64,000 nucleotides of DNA from Muribaculaceae bacterium (GTDB lineage: Bacteria; Bacteroidota; Bacteroidia; Bacteroidales; Muribaculaceae), in contig JAIECF010000110.1 of the NCBI GenBank assembly GCA_029068655.1, positions 1 through 64,000 on the forward strand. The letters run 5' to 3'. The notes under the pieces were generated by a model that saw only the letters and a list, made by a program, of their open reading frames with translations, made no database searches and was not told the origin of the DNA. Every line of letters starts with the position of its first letter. Position 1 is the first letter of the stretch. A program made the position numbers and the translations under genes. This document shows, piece by piece, positions 1,402 through 18,425 of this stretch.

Positions 1402-1754
1402 GGCTTCCACCCTACCAATTAACCCTTGCGTCCCTACTCCCCTCTGCGGACTTTGCGAGATCCCCCCATCGAGTATTCTGCCAAGTCCATTCCGCTTTAA
1501 GAGTGCGCGCCAGAGCCCGTGGAACTTTGAGAGAGATGCTCCGAGGTGGAAACGAAGTGTTAAATTTGAAAATTTTTGAAAAAATTGGGATTTTTTTTGG
1601 AATTTTTGTGAAGATTCCTTAATTTTGCGTGCTAAACCTATCGAAGTAAGTCTAAGATCAGTAGTTAACCTATTAAAAATCGTAACTTTCTGACAGCTCC
1701 AGCTTAGGATCGACAGAAGCGAAATTATTGAAAATAAACATCATAAAATGTATT

Positions 1755-4700
1755 ATGACCAAAATTAAACTAACATCGAAACGAGAAAAAGGCGGATCCT
1801 TCCTTCGGAAGACATTCCTGACCTTGATCGCCATGTTATTGGCGATTCCCGCGTTCGCGCAGAACATCGACGTATCCGGTACGGTGCTCGACGATCAAGG
1901 CGAACCACTCATCGGCGTTACAGTCATGGTGGAAGGAACTTCCAACGGTACTGCAACCGATTTTGACGGCAATTATGATCTAAAGAACGTGCCCTCCAAA
2001 GGTAAACTCGTCTTCTCCTACATCGGCTACGCCCAGCAGACTATCGAGGTCAAGGGTCGTACTCGCATCGACGTCAAGATGAGTGAGGATTCCAAAGCCC
2101 TCGATGAGCTCGTGGTAGTCGGTTACGGCCAGATGAAGAAATCCGACCTTACAGGTTCTGTTTCGACCGTAAATACAGAACAGCTTAATGCTAAAGGTTC
2201 AGCTTCAATTCTTGAAAGTCTTCAAGGTTCGGTTCCTGGTGTGAGCATTACTAAGCAATCCGGTCGTACTAACGGCGGTATAGAGATTGAAATTCGTGGA
2301 AAGTCATCCATCAATTCAAGTGTGACTCCTCTCTATGTGGTAGATGGTGTTCAGACAAGTGATATATCTTTCCTGAATCCTCAGGATATTGAACGTATCG
2401 ACATTCTTAAGGATGCGTCTTCTACTGCCATATATGGATCTCGTGCTACTGCAGGTGTTGTTATCGTGACAACTAAGAGCGGAGCGAATGTCAATAAAGG
2501 TACCAAGGCTACTATTTCATACGATGGTTACTATGGTATAAGTCATGCGACCCGTATGCCAGATTTCATGAATGGTCAGCAGTGGTATCGTTATCGTTTC
2601 CAGAAATTTACTCAACCTATAGGCGGAGTGGATGCCTATCTGCCTCAGACTCAGTTTGGTATTCTTTCATCTTCAATGGGTTTAGGACAAGCGTTGCTTC
2701 AGGCGACTGAAGGTGATCTTGAGTCTCCGTATGTTATGAAGGAGATGCTTGCTAACGATGCTACTTACTATTGGCCCGGTCTTGTGACTCAAGACGGACA
2801 CCAGCAGAACCACTATGTCTCAGTATCTGGAGCAAGCGAAAGCGTCAACTATCACTTTGGTCTCGGCTATGAGAATGTGCAGGGTCTCTATAAGGGGGAT
2901 AGTAAAGGGACATACTCATTTAAAGGTAGTGTCGATGCTAAGCTAAATAAGGTGATAAGTGCTGGCTTCAACTTCAACATTGCTCAGATAAATAATTCTT
3001 ACGCTGATGATAATGCTATTGCTCAAGCGTACAGAGTTAATCCCTTTATGATTCCTTTTGATGAAGATGGCAATACCAACCATTTCCCCGGGAATAAGAC
3101 AACCTTAGGAACTAACGCCAATCAGTTCTCGGACTTTATCAATCCTTTGGATCGAATGAAGAATTCTACACATAAGCGTAAAACTTATAGGTTACTCGGC
3201 AACATCTATGCACAGTTCAATATAATTCAGGGGCTGACTTTTAAAACAACCATTTCTCCTACTTACACTGCATATCGTGATGGTGAATATGTAGGCTATA
3301 CAAATCCCGCCACAGGTAAGACCTGGGTCGACGATGAAGTTAGAAATGCTACTGTCAAAAATAATACAGGATATGGATGGACTTGGGATAACGTATTGAA
3401 TTTTACCCGGTCTTTCGGTGATCATTCTATTAATGCCACTGCGCTTTATTCTGCAGAGAAGAGTAATTCTGAAAACTATACTCAAACTGCTGTCAATCCT
3501 ATAGAGTCTACTGCTTGGTGGAATATGGCGACTGGTACAAAAGGAGAAGCCACTGTCGCTTCTGGTTTCTCAGAATCTTCAATGCAGTCTGTGGCACTTC
3601 GTGCTAACTATTCTTGGAAGAATCGTTATATGATTACAGGTACTGTACGTTGGGATGGTTCTTCAAAGTTTGGGAAAGGTAATAAATGGGGATGTTTCCC
3701 ATCAGCTGCTGTAGGATGGAATATTGCAGAAGAAGAATTCCTCCAGAAATGGTGGCTCAATAATCTCAAACTTCGTGCCAGCTATGGTGTGACAGGTAAT
3801 AACCGTGGTATTGGGAATTATGCTACAGTCATTGGAGTTAATTCTTCAAGTTTCTATCCTTTTGGAGGTTCTTATGTTGATGGTTTCTATCCTTCAGGTA
3901 TTGTTGATGAGAACATTACGTGGGAAACTTCTCATGAGATTAATATTGGTTTGGACTATGGATTCCTCAACAACAGGATTGTTGGTTCGTTGGAATGGTA
4001 CAACAAGAAGTCAAAGAATCTTCTATATAATGTAGGTCTTCCTTTGGAGACGGGAGGCGCTACGATGACCACAAATGTGGGATCTGTAAGAAATACGGGT
4101 GTTGAATTCTCTATAACCACAACTAATATTGATACTCGTGATTGGACATGGACTACATCGTTGAATCTTGCTCATAATGATAATAAAGTGCTTCAGATTA
4201 ATGGTGTATCAGACCAGATTATCGGAGGAAACGCTTCCGGATGTCTCTTCGTAGGAAGGCCGGTCACTAACGTTTATGCTTATCAATGGGATGGGATAGT
4301 GTCAGATAAGAATATGACTGTTCCTAACCACCAGATAGCTATAGACAAGGGATTCACGCCAGGTCAAACTGTTAGAGAATGCGATTATTATTATGCTTGT
4401 TACGGACAAACGGAAGGACATCCGATTATACGAGATGTAAATGGAGACGGCAAATGGAATGATGAAGATCGTGTGGTTCATAATGGTAATCCCAAAATCA
4501 CAGGAGCGTTTACTTCCAATCTTTCCTATCGCCTTCCTAAGAAAGGCGGCTCTATAGATTTCGGATTCTCAATCTATACAAAACAAGGGTATACTGTTGC
4601 TTCTCCGTTTATGGCAGGAGATGGATTTGATTGGCATGACCGTGGCCGCGGAAAAGTCGCTATGGATAACTATATTCCGGCTGGTATGCTTCTTGATGCT

Positions 4701-5090
4701 GATGGTATAAGGGCAGATGGTACTCTTATTAATCCCGTATACCAGACACAGACACATTATGGAAGCTGGCCTCTCGTAAATGCAGGCGGTAACGATGGCC
4801 TTGGTCCGGCAGGTCCTTATTTTGGACTTAGTACAGATACTAAGTTCTGTGCACGTCAGGTGGTGGACGCTTCCTTCTGGAAAGTTCAGCATGTTTCACT
4901 TGGTTATGAATTCTCTCGCCAGATTATTGAGAAGATTGGTTGCAGCAAACTTCGTCTGTATGTAAATATCTCAAATCCGTTCGTCTGGTCAAAGTATAAG
5001 GGCTTTGACCCTGAATGGGCTGATGCCGCAGGTAAGAATGATGGACCGAGCACTATTACATACGAGTTTGGCGCAAACATCACTTTCTAA
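1755..5090 (+). CDS. SusC/RagA-family TonB-linked outer membrane protein
   Basis: Signal peptide, CarboxypepD_reg-like region (VSGTVLDDQGEPLIGVTVMVEGT), TonB box/plug LDELVVVGYG, SusC signature; ATG at 1755 preferred over the TTG at 1728. Confidence 0.95.
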   Translation: MTKIKLTSKREKGGSFLRKTFLTLIAMLLAIPAFAQNIDVSGTVLDDQGEPLIGVTVMVEGTSNGTATDFDGNYDLKNVPSKGKLVFSYIGYAQQTIEVKGRTRIDVKMSEDSKALDELVVVGYGQMKKSDLTGSVSTVNTEQLNAKGSASILESLQGSVPGVSITKQSGRTNGGIEIEIRGKSSINSSVTPLYVVDGVQTSDISFLNPQDIERIDILKDASSTAIYGSRATAGVVIVTTKSGANVNKGTKATISYDGYYGISHATRMPDFMNGQQWYRYRFQKFTQPIGGVDAYLPQTQFGILSSSMGLGQALLQATEGDLESPYVMKEMLANDATYYWPGLVTQDGHQQNHYVSVSGASESVNYHFGLGYENVQGLYKGDSKGTYSFKGSVDAKLNKVISAGFNFNIAQINNSYADDNAIAQAYRVNPFMIPFDEDGNTNHFPGNKTTLGTNANQFSDFINPLDRMKNSTHKRKTYRLLGNIYAQFNIIQGLTFKTTISPTYTAYRDGEYVGYTNPATGKTWVDDEVRNATVKNNTGYGWTWDNVLNFTRSFGDHSINATALYSAEKSNSENYTQTAVNPIESTAWWNMATGTKGEATVASGFSESSMQSVALRANYSWKNRYMITGTVRWDGSSKFGKGNKWGCFPSAAVGWNIAEEEFLQKWWLNNLKLRASYGVTGNNRGIGNYATVIGVNSSSFYPFGGSYVDGFYPSGIVDENITWETSHEINIGLDYGFLNNRIVGSLEWYNKKSKNLLYNVGLPLETGGATMTTNVGSVRNTGVEFSITTTNIDTRDWTWTTSLNLAHNDNKVLQINGVSDQIIGGNASGCLFVGRPVTNVYAYQWDGIVSDKNMTVPNHQIAIDKGFTPGQTVRECDYYYACYGQTEGHPIIRDVNGDGKWNDEDRVVHNGNPKITGAFTSNLSYRLPKKGGSIDFGFSIYTKQGYTVASPFMAGDGFDWHDRGRGKVAMDNYIPAGMLLDADGIRADGTLINPVYQTQTHYGSWPLVNAGGNDGLGPAGPYFGLSTDTKFCARQVVDASFWKVQHVSLGYEFSRQIIEKIGCSKLRLYVNISNPFVWSKYKGFDPEWADAAGKNDGPSTITYEFGANITF

Positions 5091-5105
5091 TTTCTGAATA
5101 TAGGT

Positions 5106-6950
5106 ATGAAAAATATTAAATATTCTATTTTGGGAGCAGGGATAGCATTGCTGTTGTCAGGATGCTCCGACTTTCTTGATCCTCGCAATCTTTCTAATGG
5201 CGGTGAGTCTTACGAGGAATATTTTGCTCAGCATCCTGATCAAATCCGCCCCGTAGCCTATGATGCTGTTCGCTATATTGCTACACAGATAGAGCTTCTT
5301 GATCAGGCTGCAGACCTCTATATCAATCCAAGAGCTTCTGATGATGGTACATTCTCTATGTTTCAGGTAACACCTGACAACGGTACTGTTAAGAGCTATT
5401 ACAGCAATGTAATGGGTTTGATAAATAAGGCCAATTGTCTTATACGATTTGCTGGAGACAATAAGCATCTCGAGGCAGAGGGCCGATTCCTGCGCGTATT
5501 AGGCTATTATTATATGACTCAGCAGTTTGGTGCAGTACCATATTCTGACGCGTATATAAATACACCAGACCGTGATTACCCAAGAATGCCGCTTCCGGAG
5601 CTTTATGAAATAATGCTGAGTGAATGCAAAGACATTTATGACAATTCAAATCTACCTGATCAGGATCATGCAGGTAGTGCAAGTAAGCAAGCTGTGGCAG
5701 CTATAGCAGCTAAGATTGCTTTGGCCGCAGCTTGGGACCTTGATACTGATCTTGTAGATGCAGCAGCAGGTACATATAAGGTGAACTCGACTGCAAGATT
5801 TAAGGAAGCAGCTGAATGGGCCAAAAAGGCTATCATGGGTATACAGCTCACAATGTCTTTCGCTGAAAAATGGGCATGGAACAATGAAGGAAACATAGAA
5901 GAGATTTTCTCTGCGCAATGGGATCGCAAAGGATATCCAGGTAATAAGAATACCGGTGGAAATTCCATGATGAATAATTACATTGCTTATTATGGTAATT
6001 GTACTCAGTCAGGTCTTAAAGGTACAGGCTCTGGCGGAACAAATGTAATGTCAGCTAAGTCAGCAAGTCTTTTTGAAAGAGGCGATGAGCGTTTTGAAGG
6101 TACTTTTATGACTACGTTCTATAATGCGCCGAGAGCCGCTGGAGGTGGTGACGCTGATTGGAGCAAAGGTTATATGGCATGGTATAATATGACGCCTGAA
6201 CAACAGCTCGAGCTCCCTATTGCGCTAAAGTTTTATGCCCCAGGCACTACTGCTGCAGAGGCAGAGGCTGACATAAAGAAGATCGTTGCAAATGGCCAAG
6301 CGAAAAAATTTGATGAAAATACGTATGGTGTTAATGAACCTTTTGCTGCCATCATTAATGGTTCAGAAGTCACTAAATGGTCATTCAATGAAGATGGTTC
6401 AATGCCGTCGAAGGAAACCATTGCATATGACGATTTCATTAGGGAGTCTGCCAACAACGGAACATGTGTGTCGAAATATGATGATCCCGAATGTGGTGCA
6501 GTGACTGGTAGTCAGTGCTACCGCGATATACCTCTGCTGCATGTAAGCGAGATGTATCTGGTAGCAGCTGAAGCTTATCTCCTTGCTAACGACGAAGCCT
6601 CATCTCTCGCAATGATCAATGCTGTCAGAAAGAGAGCAGGAGTGAAGGAACTTTCTTCTTTCTCTTCCTATAAAGCTCCCTATGAAACCAATGGATCTTT
6701 CGTGTTCGTACCTCTTGATCTCGTCCTAGACGAGAGGGCAAGGGAATGTTATGCAGAACGCACCCGATACTTTGATCTCCGTCGTACCAAACAGCTTGTA
6801 AGGTATAATCTTGAGTTCAGTCGTTTTATGAATACTGTAGCGAAAATGAGTAATGCTCAAGGTGAGATTAAATGGTATCGGCCTATTCCTCAAGATGAAA
6901 TCGATAACAATATCGGTATCTCAAGAGAAGATCAGAATCCTGGTTATTGA
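5106..6950 (+). CDS. SusD/RagB-family nutrient-binding outer membrane lipoprotein
   Basis: Lipobox LLLSGCSDFLD, C-terminal LDERARECYAERTRYFDLRRT motif, immediately downstream of susC. Confidence 0.95.
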   Translation: MKNIKYSILGAGIALLLSGCSDFLDPRNLSNGGESYEEYFAQHPDQIRPVAYDAVRYIATQIELLDQAADLYINPRASDDGTFSMFQVTPDNGTVKSYYSNVMGLINKANCLIRFAGDNKHLEAEGRFLRVLGYYYMTQQFGAVPYSDAYINTPDRDYPRMPLPELYEIMLSECKDIYDNSNLPDQDHAGSASKQAVAAIAAKIALAAAWDLDTDLVDAAAGTYKVNSTARFKEAAEWAKKAIMGIQLTMSFAEKWAWNNEGNIEEIFSAQWDRKGYPGNKNTGGNSMMNNYIAYYGNCTQSGLKGTGSGGTNVMSAKSASLFERGDERFEGTFMTTFYNAPRAAGGGDADWSKGYMAWYNMTPEQQLELPIALKFYAPGTTAAEAEADIKKIVANGQAKKFDENTYGVNEPFAAIINGSEVTKWSFNEDGSMPSKETIAYDDFIRESANNGTCVSKYDDPECGAVTGSQCYRDIPLLHVSEMYLVAAEAYLLANDEASSLAMINAVRKRAGVKELSSFSSYKAPYETNGSFVFVPLDLVLDERARECYAERTRYFDLRRTKQLVRYNLEFSRFMNTVAKMSNAQGEIKWYRPIPQDEIDNNIGISREDQNPGY

Positions 6951-6995
6951 TTATGTTTCTCTTAGTTCATCTAAGTATCTTAAATGCTAAATTAA

Positions 6996-7511
6996 ATGAA
7001 AACAAAACATTTTTCAATATTTCTTTGTCTGGCCATAATGCTCGGCTTAGTCTCCTGCAGTGATGATACTGATATCCCTCCTACAGGAGGTCTTGACGGT
7101 GCCGAAGTAGCTGCTCTGGGTACATATGTGGGCCAATGGGAGAAGATAAATACGAAGTCAGGTAAAGTTGATGCGTTCGAAGGTTCTATTGAAGTCGCTC
7201 CATACATGATTAAAGTCGGAGAAGAAGATGAAGTTGCCGAGCACAACGTCAATGTTATTAATATACTAGAACCGGCTTTTAAATCATTGGAAGTTAAAGC
7301 TCAACAGTCGGCTTGCAACATTGTGTTTAATTCTTCCCGGACTCTCAATTTCTGGAATTATACAAAAGCAAATCCATTTGCAATCACATTTACCGGATCT
7401 ATCTCTCCCGAAGGAGAAATGACACTCAACTACAGCGTAGATGTGCGAGAGGGACGAGGAAACAATAAGATCAAGTATAACGTGATCTTTAAAGGTACCA
7501 GACAGCAATAG
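6996..7511 (+). CDS. Hypothetical lipoprotein of the SusCD locus
   Basis: 171-aa ORF with lipobox GLVSCSDD, co-directional with susCD. Confidence 0.75.
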   Translation: MKTKHFSIFLCLAIMLGLVSCSDDTDIPPTGGLDGAEVAALGTYVGQWEKINTKSGKVDAFEGSIEVAPYMIKVGEEDEVAEHNVNVINILEPAFKSLEVKAQQSACNIVFNSSRTLNFWNYTKANPFAITFTGSISPEGEMTLNYSVDVREGRGNNKIKYNVIFKGTRQQ

Positions 7512-7593: not shown

Positions 7594-8694
7594 ATGAAGA
7601 AATCATTACTTCTACTTTCATGTGCTGCCATCGCTTCTGTAGCAAGTGCGCAGGTTGCCGTAATGGCCACAGAGGAGAGCCTCGCAGAGGCTGGTATCGT
7701 AAAGGACAAGACACCTCTTGAAGGTGACTTGGTGTACGCCACTGGTTCTGTCGGTTCAATTGCCACTGCTTATGCTGACAAATGGGGTACTACTCAGGCT
7801 TCCGGTGATTATAAGACTGTGAAGGTTAATGACCTCGAGGTAACTTTAGGTACCGGTGTAGTCGGTGATACTAACCCTGTTTTCGTCAGCTTTGAAGAGG
7901 GAGCCCCTACTGCGGGTGCTGTTTTTAAGATCCATTCAAATGTTAATGGATATATGACTGTATTTACAAAGATGAATCCAAACAAGCAGTTTGTCGTATT
8001 TGAGGATACAGATGGTGCCTTGTCATATACTCTTGGCTATTCCAATGGTACCCAGACGATTCACTATGCGCTTCCTTTCTACACAGACGAAGAGGAAAAT
8101 GCCTCAGAAGGTATATTCCCAGGATATGTGAATACTACCACTGATGAGGCCTCTAAGTATTTCGTTGTTGCTACAAAACAGAGCAAAAATGAAGAAGGTC
8201 TGCTCCTTTGGAAAAACAAAGTGACTGGTGATATTGTGGCTGCTGAAAAGAATCCTACTGTTAAAGATGATGAAAATCAGCAGTATCAGGGCGTTATGGA
8301 AGATATCCCAGGTCAAAGCAAACCTCAATTCCCCTGGATAGTAGAGGGTCTTGAATCGGCACCCAAAGACAATACGGGCTTTTTGACTTTCAATGTGTAT
8401 GAGGATACAGATTACTATTTTTCAGCTCTTGGATCAAAAATTCCTGTTGCTGGTTTCGTGTATACAGAGACTAACCCAACTGTGACTTATGTTGAGGTAC
8501 TTAACGAGGACGGTTCAGTTAAGCTTCCCGAGATTGTTTTCCCCGCTATGGGCTATGGCGCTGATCCTAACGCAGTTGAAGCAGTAGCTGTTGAAAACGC
8601 AAACGCTCCTATCTACAACGCACTGGGTGTACGCGTAAACGCTGATGCAAAGGGTCTTCTCATCCAGAACGGCAAGAAGTTTATCCGTAAGTAA
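7594..8694 (+). CDS. Secreted protein with short C-terminal tail (IYNALGVRVNADAKGLLIQNGKKFIRK) resembling Bacteroidetes C-terminal sorting-type tails
   Basis: 366-aa ORF, signal peptide MKKSLLLLSCAAIASVASAQ; tail pattern similar to Por/T9SS-like C-termini. Confidence 0.75.
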   Translation: MKKSLLLLSCAAIASVASAQVAVMATEESLAEAGIVKDKTPLEGDLVYATGSVGSIATAYADKWGTTQASGDYKTVKVNDLEVTLGTGVVGDTNPVFVSFEEGAPTAGAVFKIHSNVNGYMTVFTKMNPNKQFVVFEDTDGALSYTLGYSNGTQTIHYALPFYTDEEENASEGIFPGYVNTTTDEASKYFVVATKQSKNEEGLLLWKNKVTGDIVAAEKNPTVKDDENQQYQGVMEDIPGQSKPQFPWIVEGLESAPKDNTGFLTFNVYEDTDYYFSALGSKIPVAGFVYTETNPTVTYVEVLNEDGSVKLPEIVFPAMGYGADPNAVEAVAVENANAPIYNALGVRVNADAKGLLIQNGKKFIRK

Positions 8695-8796
8695 AATCTA
8701 ATGATAAATGATGAATTATCAATGATCAATTGATATTTGTCATTGTCAATACTAAGAGGCGACTCCCAACACGGGGGGCGCCTCTGTCATTTTTTG
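8629..8796 (+). repeat. Tail module copy 1: 3' end of the 7594..8694 CDS plus AT-rich linker plus terminator hairpin (8756..8784)
   Basis: Same sequence recurs at 9565, 10655 and 11845; GAGGCGACTCCC...GGGGGGCGCCTC hairpin followed by a T-rich tract. Confidence 0.85.
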
Positions 8797-8880
8797 ATGG
8801 TGCGTGAATTAATTTGGGTTGATTGAATAATTTTAAATTAAATATTTGGAATATTATTACTAATTGATTATATTTGCACC

Positions 8881-9249
8881 ATGAAATCTATAGAAGATCA
8901 GAATGAAGATGAAGTAAGGCAGATAATACTGACTCCGGAGTTTGATGTGTTTTATTTCAGTCAGCCTGAAAGGGTGCAGAAAAAGTTTGATTATGTTATC
9001 AATGTGATGGCAACAGTGTATAATGTATCGACTAAATTTGTGAAGCATCTTAAAAATTCAGATTTATACGAAATGAGGATTTCTATAGGTTCAAATGAAT
9101 ATCGTACCATACTATTTTCAACGGATAATCAGAATTTCATTGAAGCTACTCAAATTGTTCTACTGAATGGGTTTCTTAAGAAGTCAGAGAAAGATTATAA
9201 AAAACAAATAGATATCGCACATAAAATTATTGATAGATTAAAATTATGA
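8881..9249 (+). CDS. RelE/HigB (Gp49-like) type II toxin candidate
   Basis: 122-aa ORF with VQKKFDYVINVM..., VKHLKNSDLYEMRISIGSNEYRTILF pattern; overlaps the start of a downstream XRE antitoxin gene. Confidence 0.8.
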   Translation: MKSIEDQNEDEVRQIILTPEFDVFYFSQPERVQKKFDYVINVMATVYNVSTKFVKHLKNSDLYEMRISIGSNEYRTILFSTDNQNFIEATQIVLLNGFLKKSEKDYKKQIDIAHKIIDRLKL

Positions 9250-9560
9250 TACGATTGGATCCTGAAAAAATTTCGAAATTACCTACATTCAATCAACGAC
9301 TGAATGAGAAATATGGTAAACAAGGGACACCTGAAAGAAATAAATTCAATGAGGAGTCCATAGCTTGGTTCTATGGAAATATGCTGAAAGAACGCAGAAA
9401 GGAACTGAAACTGACTCAAAAGCAACTGGCTGAACGTCTTGGGCGGGAGCAAAGCTATATAGCAAGGGTAGAGAATGGAAAGGCAGATATTCAGCTTTCA
9501 AGCTTTTTCAGAATCGCCTCAATTCTTGGGATTCAATTTGTTCCTACTTTCCTTAACTGA
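9246..9560 (+). CDS. HigA-like XRE-family antitoxin
   Basis: 104-aa ORF with helix-turn-helix LKLTQKQLAERLGREQSYIARVENGKADIQLSSFFRIASILG; 4-nt overlap with the toxin gene. Confidence 0.85.
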   Translation: MIRLDPEKISKLPTFNQRLNEKYGKQGTPERNKFNEESIAWFYGNMLKERRKELKLTQKQLAERLGREQSYIARVENGKADIQLSSFFRIASILGIQFVPTFLN

Positions 9561-9564
9561 TAGT

Positions 9565-9895
9565 GTTCGCGTGAACGCTGACGCCAGGGGACTTCTCATC
9601 CAGAACGGCAAGAAGTTTATCCGTAAGTAAGAAACTAATGATCAATGATGAAATTATCAATGATCAATTGATATTTGTCATTGTCAATCCTAAAGAGGCG
9701 GCTCCATCCTCGGAGTCGTCTCTCTGTTAATATTTGAACAACTAAAAATTTTTAAGTGCCATATTCCCGGTATTGCAGAAATTAAGGGGAAGGTACTCAG
9801 GAGGCAGGGAAGCCTCCTACCCATAGATAGACAGCACAGCTTATTTGTAGAAGGTTTGTAAATGCCGCTCACAGTCACGGTAAATAATCTATGTA
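9565..9895 (+). repeat. Tail module copy 2 (orphan; long form)
   Basis: Encodes VRVNADARGLLIQNGKKFIRK* with no gene body, then the same linker, hairpin (9695..9724) and ~170 bp shared with copy 4. Confidence 0.85.
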
Positions 9896-10000
9896 TGTCT
9901 GCTCGCATGATTGCGGCCTATATCGGCCAAAGCACGCAGAGAAAGCTAAGCATTTGTAGATATTTGAGAATTGAACTACATAAAGTAAACGAAAATTAAA

Positions 10001-10549
10001 TTATTTAAAATCTATGCTAAAACGAATAGTAAATAATGTGTTCATCTTTCTTTCTGATTCATATTCTGGGGAATAAAATACTTTGACATCACGAAGTGTT
10101 ACACCTAAACCGAGATTGAAGTTTATTTTTTTAGCATGTTGGAAACTATAGCCTATAGTGGGAGTGATATATAATCCTCCGTATGAAGTGCCATCAGAAT
10201 AGAAACCGCCACGAAAATCCACAAAAGGAGTAAATTTGCCAAACTTAGCATCATATCTAATATCAGCGAAAACTGGTATTGTAATATCTCCGGTTGGATT
10301 TGCGCATGAAAGCATGCACCCAATTCCTATGTAAAGATGGGGATTGAATTGGAAACCGTGAGAAGTAGATAGTCCTAAAAACCATAAAGTGTCTTTATCA
10401 TAGTCTAATATTTCATCATTCCAGTAATCCGTTTTTCCTATGGCATTGTCCCACTCTACAAAACCTCGGTAGCCACGTACCAGATCTCGTGCTGAACCTG
10501 GGGAACAGCATAAAATGCATAGAAGAGTAATAAGAAATGCATGTTTCAT
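10001..10549 (-). CDS. Secreted outer-membrane beta-barrel-like protein
   Basis: 182-aa ORF, signal peptide, alternating beta-strand pattern with aromatic ends. Confidence 0.65.
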   Translation of the reverse strand: MKHAFLITLLCILCCSPGSARDLVRGYRGFVEWDNAIGKTDYWNDEILDYDKDTLWFLGLSTSHGFQFNPHLYIGIGCMLSCANPTGDITIPVFADIRYDAKFGKFTPFVDFRGGFYSDGTSYGGLYITPTIGYSFQHAKKINFNLGLGVTLRDVKVFYSPEYESERKMNTLFTIRFSIDFK

Positions 10550-10654
10550 GATGAATAAAATTTATTTGCAAAGATAATATAAAATTTGACTCCTAAGAGA
10601 CTATGACAATTAAAAATTCGTTATGACTCTATAATTATTACTTTTCATACGGGA

Positions 10655-10770
10655 GGTAAGAAGTTTATCCGCAAGTAAGAAACTAATGATGAATGATCAA
10701 TTATCAATGATCAATTGATATTTGTCATTGTCAATACATAAAGAGGCGACTCCAGGGATGGAGCTGCCTC
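10655..10770 (+). repeat. Tail module copy 3 (orphan; short form)
   Basis: GGTAAGAAGTTTATCCGCAAGTAA (GKKFIRK*) plus the same linker and hairpin GAGGCGACTCCAGGGATGGAGCTGCCTC. Confidence 0.8.
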
Positions 10771-10798
10771 TGTATTCTATATAAGACAGATAGTTGGT

Positions 10799-11761
10799 TC
10801 AGCTTTTTATCCTTGCGCGAAGGGTCTTGACCACTTCAGGCTTTAGACTGGTAGCCTGAGCTATCATCTCATCGCTCAGGTTATTCATCTTGATGAGATT
10901 CTCTGCTATGGCAATCCGCTCGTCGGCACGTCCTTCGGCACGTCCTTCGGCAAGTCCTTCGGCTCGTCCTTCGGCTCGTCCTTCGGCTCGTCCTTCGGCT
11001 CGTCCAGCATTACGTTCTGTCTTGTAAATGGCATATGCGTCTCGATATGCCTTGAGTGACTGGTTGTAGGCTATCTTGTCAGTCTCGTTGAGTGCACCGT
11101 ATTGTGCCACTTGATCCAGTTTCCGGAATATCGGCTCCTGCATGAATGTCTGAGGTATCGCTTCCATCTTCTCCATATATTTAAGTATGTAAATCCATCT
11201 TTCAAGCGTTGTCCTACATTCCTCCGCGTTTTTATACAACATCGGAATCTTAAGAAACGTCATCGTCATCTTGTCAGAAAAGACCTTTCCTGTCTGCATG
11301 TTGTATAAACAAACATCTTCCCTGAGATGTTGCTCACTGACATCTTTCCATTCGAAATTCATCACGAATACACCGTAGACGGGAGTAAGCTCATAATCCC
11401 AATCTCCCTTTTGGCCCTGCGCATAAAGATCTGCTGCCATATAGTAGACGGCACGGTCATCGAAATGAGCCTGATAACGGTTCTGCATCTCAACGATTAT
11501 CTTACGTCCGTCTTCCAGTTCGCAGTGCAGATCATATATGAGAGCACGGTCATCCTTTGACTCACCTTTATTCTCCTTATCAACGAATGTAATGTTCTTA
11601 ATAGGTTTAGGACCTATCTTAAGAGCATTGAGGAAGGATACGGTGAATTCCTTGTCGGCATTTCTTCCGAAGATGTATTTGAATCCAAAGTCGGTCAGTG
11701 GATTTATGTATATTGAATTTTCCGTGTTCATCGGTAAGTGCTTGTATGTTGATATTTGCAA
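10799..11761 (-). CDS. Rpn-family recombination-promoting nuclease / PD-(D/E)XK putative transposase
   Basis: 320-aa ORF; NPLTDFGFKYIFGR...LLNALKI, YDLHCELEDGRKIIVEMQNRYQAHFDDRAVYYMA signature; AEGRAEGR repeat. Confidence 0.9.
   Translation of the reverse strand: MQISTYKHLPMNTENSIYINPLTDFGFKYIFGRNADKEFTVSFLNALKIGPKPIKNITFVDKENKGESKDDRALIYDLHCELEDGRKIIVEMQNRYQAHFDDRAVYYMAADLYAQGQKGDWDYELTPVYGVFVMNFEWKDVSEQHLREDVCLYNMQTGKVFSDKMTMTFLKIPMLYKNAEECRTTLERWIYILKYMEKMEAIPQTFMQEPIFRKLDQVAQYGALNETDKIAYNQSLKAYRDAYAIYKTERNAGRAEGRAEGRAEGRAEGLAEGRAEGRADERIAIAENLIKMNNLSDEMIAQATSLKPEVVKTLRARIKS
10922..11005 (-). repeat. In-frame 12-bp tandem repeat encoding (AEGR)n in the Rpn nuclease gene
   Basis: ~7 units of ggctcgtccttc / ggcacgtccttc. 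Confidence 0.85.
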
Positions 11762-11844
11762 AATTAATGATAAAAGTTGAATTATGCAAACATATGCATA
11801 ATTGGAAAATATATCTTGTGCATTATTGTATTAAAGTTATTTGT

Positions 11845-12160
11845 GTAAACGCCGACGCAAAGGGTCTTCTAATCCAGAACGGCAAGAAGTTTATCCGTAA
11901 GTAAAATCTAATGATAAATGATGAATTATCAATGATCAATTGATATTTGTCATTGTCAATCTTTAAGAGGCGACTCCATCCTCGGAGTCGTCTCTCTGTT
12001 AATATTTGAACAACTAAAATTTCTAAGTGCCATATTCCCGGTATTGCAGAAATAAGGGAGAGGGTACTCAGGAGGCTGGGAAGCCTCCTACCCATAGATA
12101 GACAGCACATGGTAGAAGGTTTGTAAACGCCGCTCACAGTTCCGGTAAATAAATTCTGTG
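11845..12160 (+). repeat. Tail module copy 4 (orphan; long form)
   Basis: Encodes VNADAKGLLIQNGKKFIRK* with no gene body, then the linker, hairpin (11967..11996) and ~160 bp shared with copy 2. Confidence 0.85.
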
Positions 12161-12397
12161 TAGATCTGCCGGTTCCGGCGCTAAGGATTAGGTCTGCGCA
12201 TATGCTTTATTAGTTCTTGCCGGCGGGAATTTGTAGGCTTAGGCGCTGAACTATCCTTTCAGGATGCTCAGAACAGGCGTATGAGGCGCAGAAAATTTAT
12301 TTTAGGGCCAACTTGAATCAGTGATAGTGACGGTCGCCTATTTCTAATATAAGCGTAAAGATTGATTTGGATGTTTGCACTATATTTCGTAATTTTG

Positions 12398-12495
12398 CAG
12401 ATGCCGGGCCTTAGGCCAGTACATCAAAACAAACTGTGCTTGCGTTTGTGTCAAGGAGTGGTTTGTTTAGGTGTCATAGCCTTTGGCTATGCTCC
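12398..12495. repeat. Left structured repeat flanking the RAYT gene
   Basis: 98-bp sequence nearly identical (about 4 mismatches by eye) to 13554..13651; contains several hairpin-forming palindromes. Confidence 0.9.
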
Positions 12496-12525
12496 GAAGT
12501 ATAATTCCCAATTCATCATCTCTAT

Positions 12526-13539
12526 ATGCAGAACAAACACAATAAGCGAGCATGGTGGCATGATTACTATTCCCGCAGTATTTACATGATCACCGTCAAC
12601 AAGCGCAAGGAAGCGCCATTGTTTGGTGAACTGGTGGGAGACTGGCGTATTCCTATTGGTGAATCGGGATCTCCTGATATACGTCTGTCGCAAATAGGAA
12701 AAACAATCAGGAAATGGATAAAAAATATTCCTTCAATCATCCCTGATACCCGGTTGTTTCAATATAAAGTCATGCCTGATCATGTTCATATTCTGATTTT
12801 CGTGCAAAAGAGGACTCCATATCATCTTGGAAAGTATATTTCAGCTTTCAAGAATGCCATTAGAAAAGAAATCGGATTATCTGCATTTGAGTCAGGTTTC
12901 AATGATAAGATACTGTCAGTGACAAGGAAATTGGACGATATGTTCCTGTATATTCAAGAAAATCCTTATCGCCTGGCGATTAAAAAGGCAAATCCGGAAA
13001 ATTATCGACGATGCGATAAGATAAAGATTCAGGGAAAGTTATATACAGGCTACGGTAATCTTTTTCTTCTCAAGAATCCTTTTCGGGAAGCGGTGATAGT
13101 CCATCGGAAATCTTCGGATGAAGAGAAGGCGAAGCAGTGCGAAAGATGGCTTCATCATTCCTATGGAGGAGGGGTATTGGTTTCTCCTTTCATATCTAAG
13201 GATGAGAAAGATGTCAGGGCTAAAGTTGAGAAATTCGGAGGAAGGGTTATCCTGATTTCAGATAAGCCTTTGCCACCTCCACCATGGAAGCCGGCCTACA
13301 GCGACTTCTATAGATGTGCACGAGGAGAGCTGCTTATACTGGCTCCTATTGCGGAGCTGAATCATGATGAGGGTCCTTCGGAAAGATCGGTAAGGGAAAG
13401 AAGGCAGAATCGCGATGCGATTATCAATGGCAAAGTCAGCCCTGAGAAGAAAAAGAAAATTTCCCGAAGTAAGTGTCTAAGTCTAAATGATCTTGCTGAA
13501 TATATCTGTTCTGATAAGTTTAATTCTAAAAGAAAATAG
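12526..13539 (+). CDS. REP-associated tyrosine transposase (RAYT, Y1/HUH) with long C-terminal extension
   Basis: HUH motif in YKVMPDHVHILIFVQ, Y1-type YIQENPYRLAIKK; flanked by structured repeats; ~150-aa C-terminal domain (GGGVLVSPFISKDEKDVRAKVEKFGGRVILISD...CARGELLILAP). Confidence 0.88.
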   Translation: MQNKHNKRAWWHDYYSRSIYMITVNKRKEAPLFGELVGDWRIPIGESGSPDIRLSQIGKTIRKWIKNIPSIIPDTRLFQYKVMPDHVHILIFVQKRTPYHLGKYISAFKNAIRKEIGLSAFESGFNDKILSVTRKLDDMFLYIQENPYRLAIKKANPENYRRCDKIKIQGKLYTGYGNLFLLKNPFREAVIVHRKSSDEEKAKQCERWLHHSYGGGVLVSPFISKDEKDVRAKVEKFGGRVILISDKPLPPPPWKPAYSDFYRCARGELLILAPIAELNHDEGPSERSVRERRQNRDAIINGKVSPEKKKKISRSKCLSLNDLAEYICSDKFNSKRK

Positions 13540-13553
13540 AATAGCAAAAGCCT

Positions 13554-13651
13554 CAGATGCCGGGCCTTAGGCCCGTACACCAAAACAAACCGTGCTTGCG
13601 TTTGTGTCAAGGAGTGGTTTGTTTAGGTGTCTTAGCCTTTGGCTATGCTCC
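13554..13651. repeat. Right structured repeat flanking the RAYT gene
   Basis: See 12398..12495; ACACCAAAACAAACC pairs with GGTTTGTTTAGGTGT (one mismatch), GGGCCT-T-AGGCCC and AGCC-TTT-GGCT hairpins. Confidence 0.9.
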
Positions 13652-13682
13652 TGAGGAAGCTCAAATAAATGATGAATGAATT

Positions 13683-13862
13683 ATGAAGTCGATAATTTTC
13701 TCAATAATCTCACTCCTCTTTATTTCAATTTCCCTGCATGCCGCGGAGAAGCCCTGGAGTCATGGAGCCCTTAAGGTGTCGGACAACGGACTCTATCTTC
13801 AGCATGAGGACGGAACACCCTTCTTCTGGCTCGGAGATACAGGTTGGCTGCTTCCTCACTGA
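13683..13862 (+). pseudogene. 5' remnant of a DUF4038/apiosidase-like (GH140-like) secreted glycosidase gene
   Basis: 59-aa [74 protein letters not shown] is the N-terminal hallmark of DUF4038, but the ORF stops there. Confidence 0.7.
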
Positions 13863-13992: not shown

Positions 13993-14766
13993 ATGAAAAT
14001 ACTGATACTTGGAGCCGGAAAGATGGGCTCCTTCTTCTGCGACTTGCTCAGCTTCGACCATGAAGTAGCCATTTATGACCCCAATCCGGAGCACTTGAAG
14101 TTTACCTTCAACGTGCAGCGTTTCATGAAGCCGGAAGAGGCAGAGGCCTTCGGGCCGGAGCTCGTGATCAACGCTGCGACGGTGAAATACACCATAGAGG
14201 CGTTTGAGAAGATACTGCCTTATATTCCCAAGACCGCTATACTGAGCGATATCGCGAGCGTGAAGACCGGGTTGCCTGAGTTTTATGCTCAAAAGGGATT
14301 CCGCTTTGTCTCAACGCATCCCATGTTCGGACCTACTTTCGCCTCACTGAGCAACCTGGCCCACGAAAACGCTATCATCATCAAGGAAGGAGACGAGGAG
14401 GGACGAGAGTTCTTCCGGAATATTTATAAGAAACTGCGTCTTCATATTGAAGACTATACATTCGCGGAGCATGACGAGACTATCGCCTATTCCCTTTCCA
14501 TACCTTTTACCTCCACCCTCGTATTCGGCAGCGTCATGAAGCATCAGGATGCGCCGGGCACCACCTTCAAACGCCACATGGCGATAGCTCACGGACTGAT
14601 GGGAGAGGATGATTTCCTACTGACTGAGATCCTTTTCAATCCGCATACATCGTCGCAGCTCGATCGTATTCAGGAGAACCTTACGGAACTGAAAGCCATC
14701 ATAGACTGTCGCGACTCGGACGCCATGAAGGAGTTTCTGGACAGGGTAAGGGAAAATTTGAAATGA
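13993..14766 (+). CDS. tyrA: Prephenate dehydrogenase
   Basis: 257-aa ORF; Rossmann LILGAGKMGSFFCDLL, SDIASVKTGL, STHPMFGPTFASL motifs. Confidence 0.9.
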   Translation: MKILILGAGKMGSFFCDLLSFDHEVAIYDPNPEHLKFTFNVQRFMKPEEAEAFGPELVINAATVKYTIEAFEKILPYIPKTAILSDIASVKTGLPEFYAQKGFRFVSTHPMFGPTFASLSNLAHENAIIIKEGDEEGREFFRNIYKKLRLHIEDYTFAEHDETIAYSLSIPFTSTLVFGSVMKHQDAPGTTFKRHMAIAHGLMGEDDFLLTEILFNPHTSSQLDRIQENLTELKAIIDCRDSDAMKEFLDRVRENLK

Positions 14767-16820: not shown

Positions 16821-18323
16821 ATGAGCATCCCTTTTATTACGGCCGAAGAGGCTGCTTCCTACATCAAAAACGGTGATAATGTGGGTCTCTCGGGCTTTAC
16901 CGCCTCCGGTACCCCAAAAGTTGTAACGGTTGCCTTGGCCAAGCGCGCCAAGGAACTCCATGAAAAAGGACTCCCCTTCAAGATCAATCTCTTCACGGGA
17001 GCTTCCACCAACGACCATGTCGACGGCGAGCTCTCCCGTGCGGACGCCATCGCCATCCGCACGCCCTATCAGGGTCATAGCGACTCCCGCAAGGCGATTA
17101 ACGCCCAGGCCATCAACTATTTCGACGGCCACCTCAGCATGCTGGCGCAGGATCTCCGCTATGGATTCTTCGGCGACATCGATGTGGCAATCATCGAGGT
17201 GACCGAGATGAGCCCCAATGGCGACGTAATCCTGGGCGCCGGTCTCGGTATGACACCGACGCTCGCGAAAATGGCCAAGAAGATCATACTTGAATATTCA
17301 AGCTACTACAAGACCTCTTTCCGTGGCTTCCACGACAACTACGTGCCTCTTGATCCTCCTCACCGCCGCGAGATACCTATCTATAAACCATCCGACCGCA
17401 TCGGCTCTACGGTGCTCCACCTTGATCCGAAGAAGATCATTGGCGTGGTTCCCTCAAATGCATCGGAAGGCGTCAAGCCCTTCACTCCCTCCGATGCGGT
17501 TACTCATCAGATAGGCGAGAACGTCTGCAACTTCCTCGTGCAGCAGCTTCGCAGCGGAATGCTCCCCAAGGAATTCCTTCCCATCCAGTCGGGTGTGGGC
17601 AACGTAGCCAACTCTGTCCTTTACGGTCTGGGCGAGAACCCGGAGATCCCGGCCTTCGAGATGTATACCGAGGTAATCCAGGACGCCGTCATGACTCTCA
17701 TGGAGCAGGGACACTGCAAGTTTGCCTCCACATGCGCCATGACCTTCTCAGACGACGCCATGCTCCACTTCATGGAAAACATCGACTTCTTCCGCGACAA
17801 GATCCTTCTCCGTTCCGGCGAGATCTCTAACAGTCCTGAAGTAGTGCGCCGACTCGGCGTCATCACAATGAATACCGCCCTTGAGGCCGATATCTACGGC
17901 AACGTCAACTCCACCCACGTGCTCGGCACCAAGATGATGAATGGTATAGGCGGCTCAGGCGACTTCACACGCAACGGCTACCTCTCGATCTTCTCATGTC
18001 CCTCTGTCCAGAAGGGGGGCAAGATCTCGGCAATCGTACCGATGTGCTCGCATATCGACCATTCAGAACACTCAGTGAATGTCCTCATCACAGAGCAGGG
18101 TGTTGCCGATCTCCGTGGCAAGGATCCGCGCCAGCGTGCCACTACAATCATCGAAAATTGTGTGCATCCGATGTATAAGGAGATCATGTGGGACTACCTC
18201 AAGCTGGCCAACAAGGGAGTTAAGGCCCATACTCCGCATCACCTCCACGCAGCTTTCGCGCTCCACGAGACATTTATCGACTGCGGCGATATGTCGCAGG
18301 TGGATTTCGCGAAGTACTATTGA
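16821..18323 (+). CDS. Acetyl-CoA hydrolase/transferase family (succinate CoA-transferase-like)
   Basis: ITAEEAASYIKNGDNVGLSGFTASGTPK; IQSGVGNVANSVLYGL; ITEQGVADLRGKDPRQRA; ATG at 16821 preferred. Confidence 0.93.
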   Translation: MSIPFITAEEAASYIKNGDNVGLSGFTASGTPKVVTVALAKRAKELHEKGLPFKINLFTGASTNDHVDGELSRADAIAIRTPYQGHSDSRKAINAQAINYFDGHLSMLAQDLRYGFFGDIDVAIIEVTEMSPNGDVILGAGLGMTPTLAKMAKKIILEYSSYYKTSFRGFHDNYVPLDPPHRREIPIYKPSDRIGSTVLHLDPKKIIGVVPSNASEGVKPFTPSDAVTHQIGENVCNFLVQQLRSGMLPKEFLPIQSGVGNVANSVLYGLGENPEIPAFEMYTEVIQDAVMTLMEQGHCKFASTCAMTFSDDAMLHFMENIDFFRDKILLRSGEISNSPEVVRRLGVITMNTALEADIYGNVNSTHVLGTKMMNGIGGSGDFTRNGYLSIFSCPSVQKGGKISAIVPMCSHIDHSEHSVNVLITEQGVADLRGKDPRQRATTIIENCVHPMYKEIMWDYLKLANKGVKAHTPHHLHAAFALHETFIDCGDMSQVDFAKYY

Positions 18324-18327
18324 TTAA

Positions 18328-18362
18328 GTCTTGAGTCTTGAGTCTTAAGTCTTGAGTCTTGA
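18328..18362. repeat. Heptanucleotide tandem repeat (GTCTTGA/GTCTTAA, 5 units)
   Basis: Direct reading. Confidence 0.85.
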
Positions 18363-18425
18363 GATTGAGATTGAATAATTGAATTGGATTTTTATAAGGC
18401 GATTGCCCGGAAGGGGGAATCGCCT

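Follow-up and report, generated by a model that had tools for sequence, protein, structure and literature searches.

The 64,000-nucleotide window analysed here (contig JAIECF010000110.1, assembly GCA_029068655.1, forward strand) comes from a Muribaculaceae-like assembly of 264 contigs that is 86% complete, and carries a SusC-SusD operon for sugar uptake, followed by a small lipoprotein gene, a secreted-protein gene and an array in which the 3′ end of that last gene, here termed the tail, recurs between cargo genes. The locus is probably a record of the successive displacement of the operon-terminal gene, with the breakpoints falling in its tail. Species differ in their cargo and its order, modules move from one species to another, and the orphan tails are the ends of once-functional genes.

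Four tails, all on the + strand and starting at 8629, 9565, 10655 and 11845, had been noticed in a sequence-only reading, and both sequence inspection and a repeat search bear these coordinates out. Copy 1 alone is attached to a gene, the 366-aa open reading frame (ORF) at 7594-8694 (+), whose body is turned over between species, while copies 2-4 are orphan. Copy 1 (8629-8793) comprises the last 22 codons of that gene (8629-8694), an AT-rich linker and a hairpin, and the same elements make up copy 2 (9565-9725; 22 codons at 9565-9630), copy 4 (11845-11998; about 20 codons at 11845-11904) and the much shorter copy 3 (10655-10775), in which the last 8 codons (10655-10678) are clear, or up to ~39 nt if a 1-nt deletion is allowed. 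Stop codon, linker and stable hairpin are kept in all four; the hairpin has 12 pairs in each copy, with RNA folding z values of -5.0, -5.6, -4.1 and -6.1, and the U-tracts behind copies 2-4 are weak. All orphan tails start ~24 to ~89 bp before the stop codon, at points that differ by tens of bases, and remnants of the 5′ or middle parts of gene bodies were not found in the window.

A whole-genome search returned strong matches only for the four window copies (E 7e-83 to 5e-32), the ~30 further matches all covering the linker core alone (query positions ~70-112). A degenerate 24-base pattern built on the last 8 codons likewise occurs exactly four times in this genome and 28 times in 111 genomes of the genus (reversed-pattern control, 0), 23 of these matches lying at this SusC-SusD locus or a close homologue and 5 elsewhere or on short contigs. 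The exact tail pattern does not occur in viral contigs, plasmid and phage records contain no match to the array, and Rfam finds nothing at the locus. Random genome-wide scatter of the coding tail is thus not what the search shows, and the idea of the tail as a dispersed repeat was rejected: dispersal is confined to the linker, and the coding tail stays at the locus. The linker core (8714-8750; TTATCAATGATCAATTGATATTTGTCATTG) is a dispersed short repeat found in ~30 places in the genome; it was also seen in related genomes and in local arrays, for example on contig C113. As tails do not accompany the linker elsewhere, it was rejected as the main mover.

The comparison of two sister species, G064 and G067, bears most directly on the origin of the orphan tails. 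An alignment of 333 bp, at 86% identity, matches the second tail of the G067 array (T2), with its linker, hairpin and the flank on the RhuM side, to the 3′ end of the second gene of the G064 array and the sequence beside it; that gene is intact and encodes 408 aa. The homology breaks off sharply 88 bp before the stop codon; upstream of this junction the sequence is unrelated, and no other part of the 408-aa gene body was found in G067 or in G065. The event is resolved at that end only, with a sharp non-homologous left junction and a collinear right flank, and the G067 orphan tail clearly appears to be the relic of the gene that is intact in G064. The substitutions in the orphan tails are of the same tenor. 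Outside the junction codons, the window copies differ from copy 1 by 10 synonymous and 1 non-synonymous substitutions, that is 10/11 against a synonymous share of 0.41 expected if an orphan drifts freely while the gene copy is under constraint (P ~9e-4); if codons 10-14 of copy 3, which are decayed, are included the ratio is about 11 synonymous to 4 (P ~0.01), and for all orphans of all species pooled 25 of 32 changes are synonymous (P ~2e-5), all three P values being approximate as the tests assume independent changes. This excess implies that the tails were parts of working genes when they diverged. The sequence-only reading had drawn the tails from functional paralogous genes on the strength of their mostly synonymous differences, and these counts, the G064/G067 relic and the cargo comparison concur.

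The array occupies a defined interval. The left backbone of SusC-like, SusD-like and small lipoprotein genes (1728-7511, +) is conserved by tblastn against the relatives, SusC identity between species being 75-97%, and on the right the conserved backbone is a TyrA-like prephenate dehydrogenase gene (13993-14766, +), which in the relatives follows an apiosidase-like glycoside hydrolase gene (PF13204) behind the array. In the simplest relatives, G080 and G036, the hydrolase stands directly behind the secreted-protein gene, with TyrA next in G080, so that the array occupies the interval between secreted-protein gene and hydrolase. Its right border in the window is at 12333-12416, where collinearity with the sequence behind the last tails of G067 and G064 sets in. 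The window array holds a HigB-like toxin gene of the Gp49 type (8881-9249) with a helix-turn-helix (HTH) antitoxin gene (9246-9560) and an upstream segment (the unit spanning 8782-9560, +), a gene for a secreted barrel-like protein of 182 aa (10001-10549, -) and a gene of the Rpn family of recombination-promoting nucleases/putative transposases (10799-11761, -; PF12784, E 1.4e-52; TIGR01784, E 1.3e-26). The toxin-antitoxin pair and the Rpn nuclease are as first read; the designation of the second cargo gene as a beta-barrel has a weak, sub-threshold family match behind it, and relatives of this gene sit directly behind tail 1 in three species.

Among related species, each represented by one genome, the same operon is followed by 0-2 further tails and by different cargo (toxin-antitoxin pairs, barrel-like, serpin, RhuM and leucine-rich-repeat (LRR) genes, or paralogues), and the backbone is constant while the cargo differs in seven or more species. 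Thus G067 reads gene-tail-barrel-serpin-tail-HigBA-tail, G064 gene-tail-second gene-tail-RhuM-tail, G065 gene-tail-barrel-barrel-LRR-tail-RhuM and more, G091 gene-tail-LRR-toxin-antitoxin-tail-LRR-toxin-antitoxin-tail, and G063 gene-tail-barrel-LRR; G068 and G084 have two intact paralogues each, and a short contig of G061 carries tail-LRR-tail-HTH gene. The term LRR for the proteins of 984-1014 aa is read from their repeats and not from a family match. Between G065 and G067, SusC is 97% and SusD 99% identical, yet their arrays diverge beyond the first barrel-like gene. With content and order of the cargo differing between species and tails that are not randomly dispersed, neither of the two patterns that the sequence-only reading had named as speaking against it, the same cargo and tail order in all relatives or random dispersal of the tails, is what we find. 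Two further observations concern these arrays. In G091 (L043, 7414-16180, reverse-complement coordinates) the LRR-like gene, toxin-antitoxin pair and orphan tail form an exact tandem duplication of 4365 bp, which may be real or an assembly loop. In G065 (L045, 8353-8560, minus strand) the orphan 3′ end of a neighbouring LRR-like gene, 93% identical over 208 bp, stands in front of the intact gene; it is a second tail family with like behaviour.

Identity values separate the terminal gene from its backbone. Across species, SusC and SusD identities correlate at 0.82, SusC and first-gene identities at 0.42, and between the window and G084 SusC is 87% and the first gene 42% identical. In the pair with two intact paralogues each, G068 and G084, the second genes are 69.5% and the first genes 48% identical, and the greater likeness of the second-position genes indicates that the first position is what changes. 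G063 and G065, both with a barrel-like gene behind tail 1, have first genes 82% identical against 79% for SusC. Between the window and G067 the HigBA unit is 91% identical in DNA sequence, against 80% for TyrA and 75% for SusC; the shared stretch runs from a terminator arm to inside the next tail, and HigBA relatives from other places in the genus are less similar. As far as sequence identity can tell, this shows that the HigBA unit moved horizontally between species.

Several observations point to recombination within the tails, to judge from the sequences compared. Copy 4 is a mosaic, equal to copy 1 over 91 aligned columns (codon 12 to linker end) and thereafter resembling copy 2. At conserved amino-acid columns, tail codons agree between species at 0.743 against 0.485 for amino-acid-matched SusC/SusD codons (standard deviation 0.033; 0/20000). 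Neighbouring paralogues of the Prevotella group (L138, L147) are 33-37% identical as proteins but 92-98% identical in their final 79-110 bp, which suggests that their C-terminal tails have undergone gene conversion. In G071 (L057, 5733-6380) a different SusC-SusD operon is closed by a relative of the second G064 gene that has the same tail. The genome-wide controls were made by search and sampling; in a base-rate control of 849 ORFs from 94 Bacteroidales loci (1.48 Mb, loci of interest included), local orphan copies of long 3′ ends are almost confined to this array family, the other long cases being one 402-bp repeat (L113) and the LRR tail in G065. A further candidate, L117, was rejected as its 3′ end proved to be attached.

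The proposed displacement would proceed as follows. Terminal secreted proteins that otherwise differ have their C-terminal ~30 residues in common, at the DNA level too, and incoming DNA with a new terminal gene and/or cargo would recombine into the locus, on one side by homologous recombination in the upstream backbone or a resident tail, on the other with a breakpoint in the final ~25-90 bp of the resident gene. The body of the old gene would be lost, and its last codons, linker and terminator would persist as an orphan tail with the downstream cargo; repeated rounds would yield gene-tail-cargo-tail-cargo-tail in a single direction, the youngest unit adjoining the operon. We infer that the route would be linear, by homology-facilitated illegitimate recombination, or would pass through a circular intermediate, and that homology between tails may itself guide the recombination. 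The first proposal, of a homology or target block for the swapping of gene bodies or cargo, is borne out in part: the tail would act as the zone where replacements end, and the anatomy suits displacement of an operon-terminal gene, as at Rhs or type VI loci, better than insertion of cassettes at a dedicated site. Target-site duplications at the array junctions were not demonstrated.

Two published systems offer by analogy a plausible route for these steps, the fit being given by one intact gene in first place, 3′ fragments in the same direction, interspersed cargo and the lack of a site-specific recombinase in the array. Rhs loci carry displacement arrays of C-terminal tips for which homologous recombination has been proposed (Jackson et al., 2009; PMC2935791); there as here, behind an intact gene stand direct repeats of a conserved gene segment, all in one orientation and variable in length, with unrelated variable segments between them, and conserved and variable parts evolve separately. 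However, the repeated block is here the 3′ end, encoding the C-terminal tail, whereas in Rhs it is the core preceding the toxin tip; the gene is not Rhs, and most cargo is not evidently toxin-immunity. In the effector-immunity modules of the Vibrio cholerae type VI secretion system (T6SS), sequential displacement by homology-facilitated illegitimate recombination has been proposed (Kirchberger et al., 2017; PMC5361080): new modules enter beside a conserved backbone, oust the old gene and push its downstream companions back, and the 3′ end of the displaced effector gene can persist, as at our locus. Here there is no T6SS, the neighbours kept are mixed cargo rather than immunity genes, and the breakpoint zone is the shared C-terminal tail. 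No Pfam or NCBIfam match to Rhs repeats or T6SS genes was found among the array proteins, and the cargo classes across arrays are toxin-antitoxin, Rpn, barrel-like, serpin, RhuM and LRR, not immunity genes or toxin tips. The anatomy of a displacement array, with a conserved backbone on one side, an intact gene first and same-orientation homologue fragments behind, is present; a fragment matching a gene that is intact elsewhere is seen in G067 T2 and the G064 gene, and no such match was found for window copies 2-4.

Some points weigh against displacement. Non-synonymous changes or frameshifts occur in some orphan tails (G091, the third tails of G067 and G064), so that not all tails were displaced recently, and no intact parent gene was found for window copies 2-4. 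The direction of change between G064 and G067 is assumed; G064 may instead have gained the gene by insertion into a tail. Codon selection could account for part of the tail's conservation at the DNA level. The sample holds no same-species strain pair and no single event with its ancestral and derived states in close relatives, and the genomes with arrays and orphan tails, as far as named, are all metagenome assemblies.

The nearest rival, which we consider unlikely, is that circles bearing a tail fragment and cargo enter the resident tail by homologous recombination, so that no gene body is lost and each event gains cargo plus tail. The constant orientation, the variable start of the tail fragments, the lack of body remnants, the recurrence of HigBA-tail and LRR-tail units and the exact 4365-bp tandem duplication in G091 would all suit such a route, which has been proposed for Rhs (Jackson et al., 2009; PMC2935791). 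However, no circle or excision site was seen, the between-species homology of 60-150 bp is short for RecA, and the G091 duplication could be the assembly loop mentioned above. Distinctly less probable is a gene graveyard, in which the terminal gene was duplicated in tandem, bodies were lost by ordinary deletion and unrelated cargo arrived, with no recombinational role for the tail. Intact tandem paralogues in G064, G068 and G084 and linkers common to the tails within a genome agree with it, but every orphan start falls within the last ~90 bp with 5′ and mid-body remnants absent, near sisters differ in order and cargo, and a cargo-tail unit has moved between species. That a mobile element copies the tails around, be it the HUH/RAYT-like gene with its repeats, the Rpn protein or the dispersed linker repeat, is very improbable: an HUH-like ORF (12526-13539) with 98-bp flanking repeats adjoins the array, Rpn lies inside it and the linker core is dispersed genome-wide, but in this genome the coding tail does not leave the locus, most arrays lack Rpn, and the G067 and G064 arrays are without the HUH gene, on which ground that gene was rejected as the driver. 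Finally, it is scarcely credible that tails are retained mainly as transcription terminators insulating cargo genes, a view that accommodates four intact hairpins of four but leaves unexplained the in-frame codons with synonymous differences, the species-specific cargo and the weak U-tracts behind copies 2-4.

Comparison with an integron, loosely drawn in the sequence-only reading, holds for the anatomy alone. Chromosomal integrons share the same-direction cargo array, the repeated element between cargo and the inclusion of toxin-antitoxin pairs, but the array here is without integrase or attC-like sites, its junctions vary by tens of bases and lie at no fixed base, and its repeat is a coding gene end; no IntI-type tyrosine recombinase was found among the array ORFs and their Pfam/NCBIfam matches, a scan covering the array and not the rest of the genome. 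Within the same bacterial order, the part of the Porphyromonas gingivalis study consulted (PMC5266723) describes allelic exchange and domain rearrangement among secreted proteins with a conserved C-terminal domain, surface proteins which thus diversify by recombination; there intact genes recombine, and that part makes no mention of orphan 3′ tails or cargo arrays.

Toxin loci are the main setting in which displacement arrays are known; the probable one here follows a nutrient-uptake operon in a family common in the mouse gut. If our reading is right, the mechanism would extend to surface-protein turnover with the C-terminal tail as breakpoint zone, the succession of genes that a locus once held would become readable, and the C-terminal tails that Bacteroidales secreted proteins share would acquire a testable role beyond export. 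It is conceivable, though doubtful, that across the Bacteroidales shared C-terminal tails form a DNA-level exchange block that swaps genes or cargo between alleles, SusCD loci and species, the orphan tails being its record; this would amount to a general, integrase-free loading of cargo behind polysaccharide-use operons.

The 366-aa secreted protein itself matches no Pfam family and no relevant NCBIfam family, and hence none of the curated C-terminal sorting-domain models of the type IX secretion system; its predicted structure (pLDDT 68) gave no credible relative in a fold search, nor did a sequence search of the PDB. Its tail motif is found again on many Prevotella-group proteins. The extra ~170 bp reported as common to copies 2 and 4 is real (94%/88%) and lies at 9738-9895 (+) and 12009-12160 (+); it is a dispersed intergenic repeat, also present on contig C147 (~17800-18380), and carries an AGGAGGC...GCCTCCT hairpin. 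Beyond the array, the match of the adjoining ORF at 12526-13539 to the HUH (REP-associated-transposase-like) family lies below the curated cut-off, and the 98-bp direct repeats flanking it (12398-13651 region) are 96% identical with palindromic cores. At ~13667-13858 the window retains a remnant of the apiosidase-like hydrolase gene, most of which is gone; in the relatives the gene is intact between array and TyrA.

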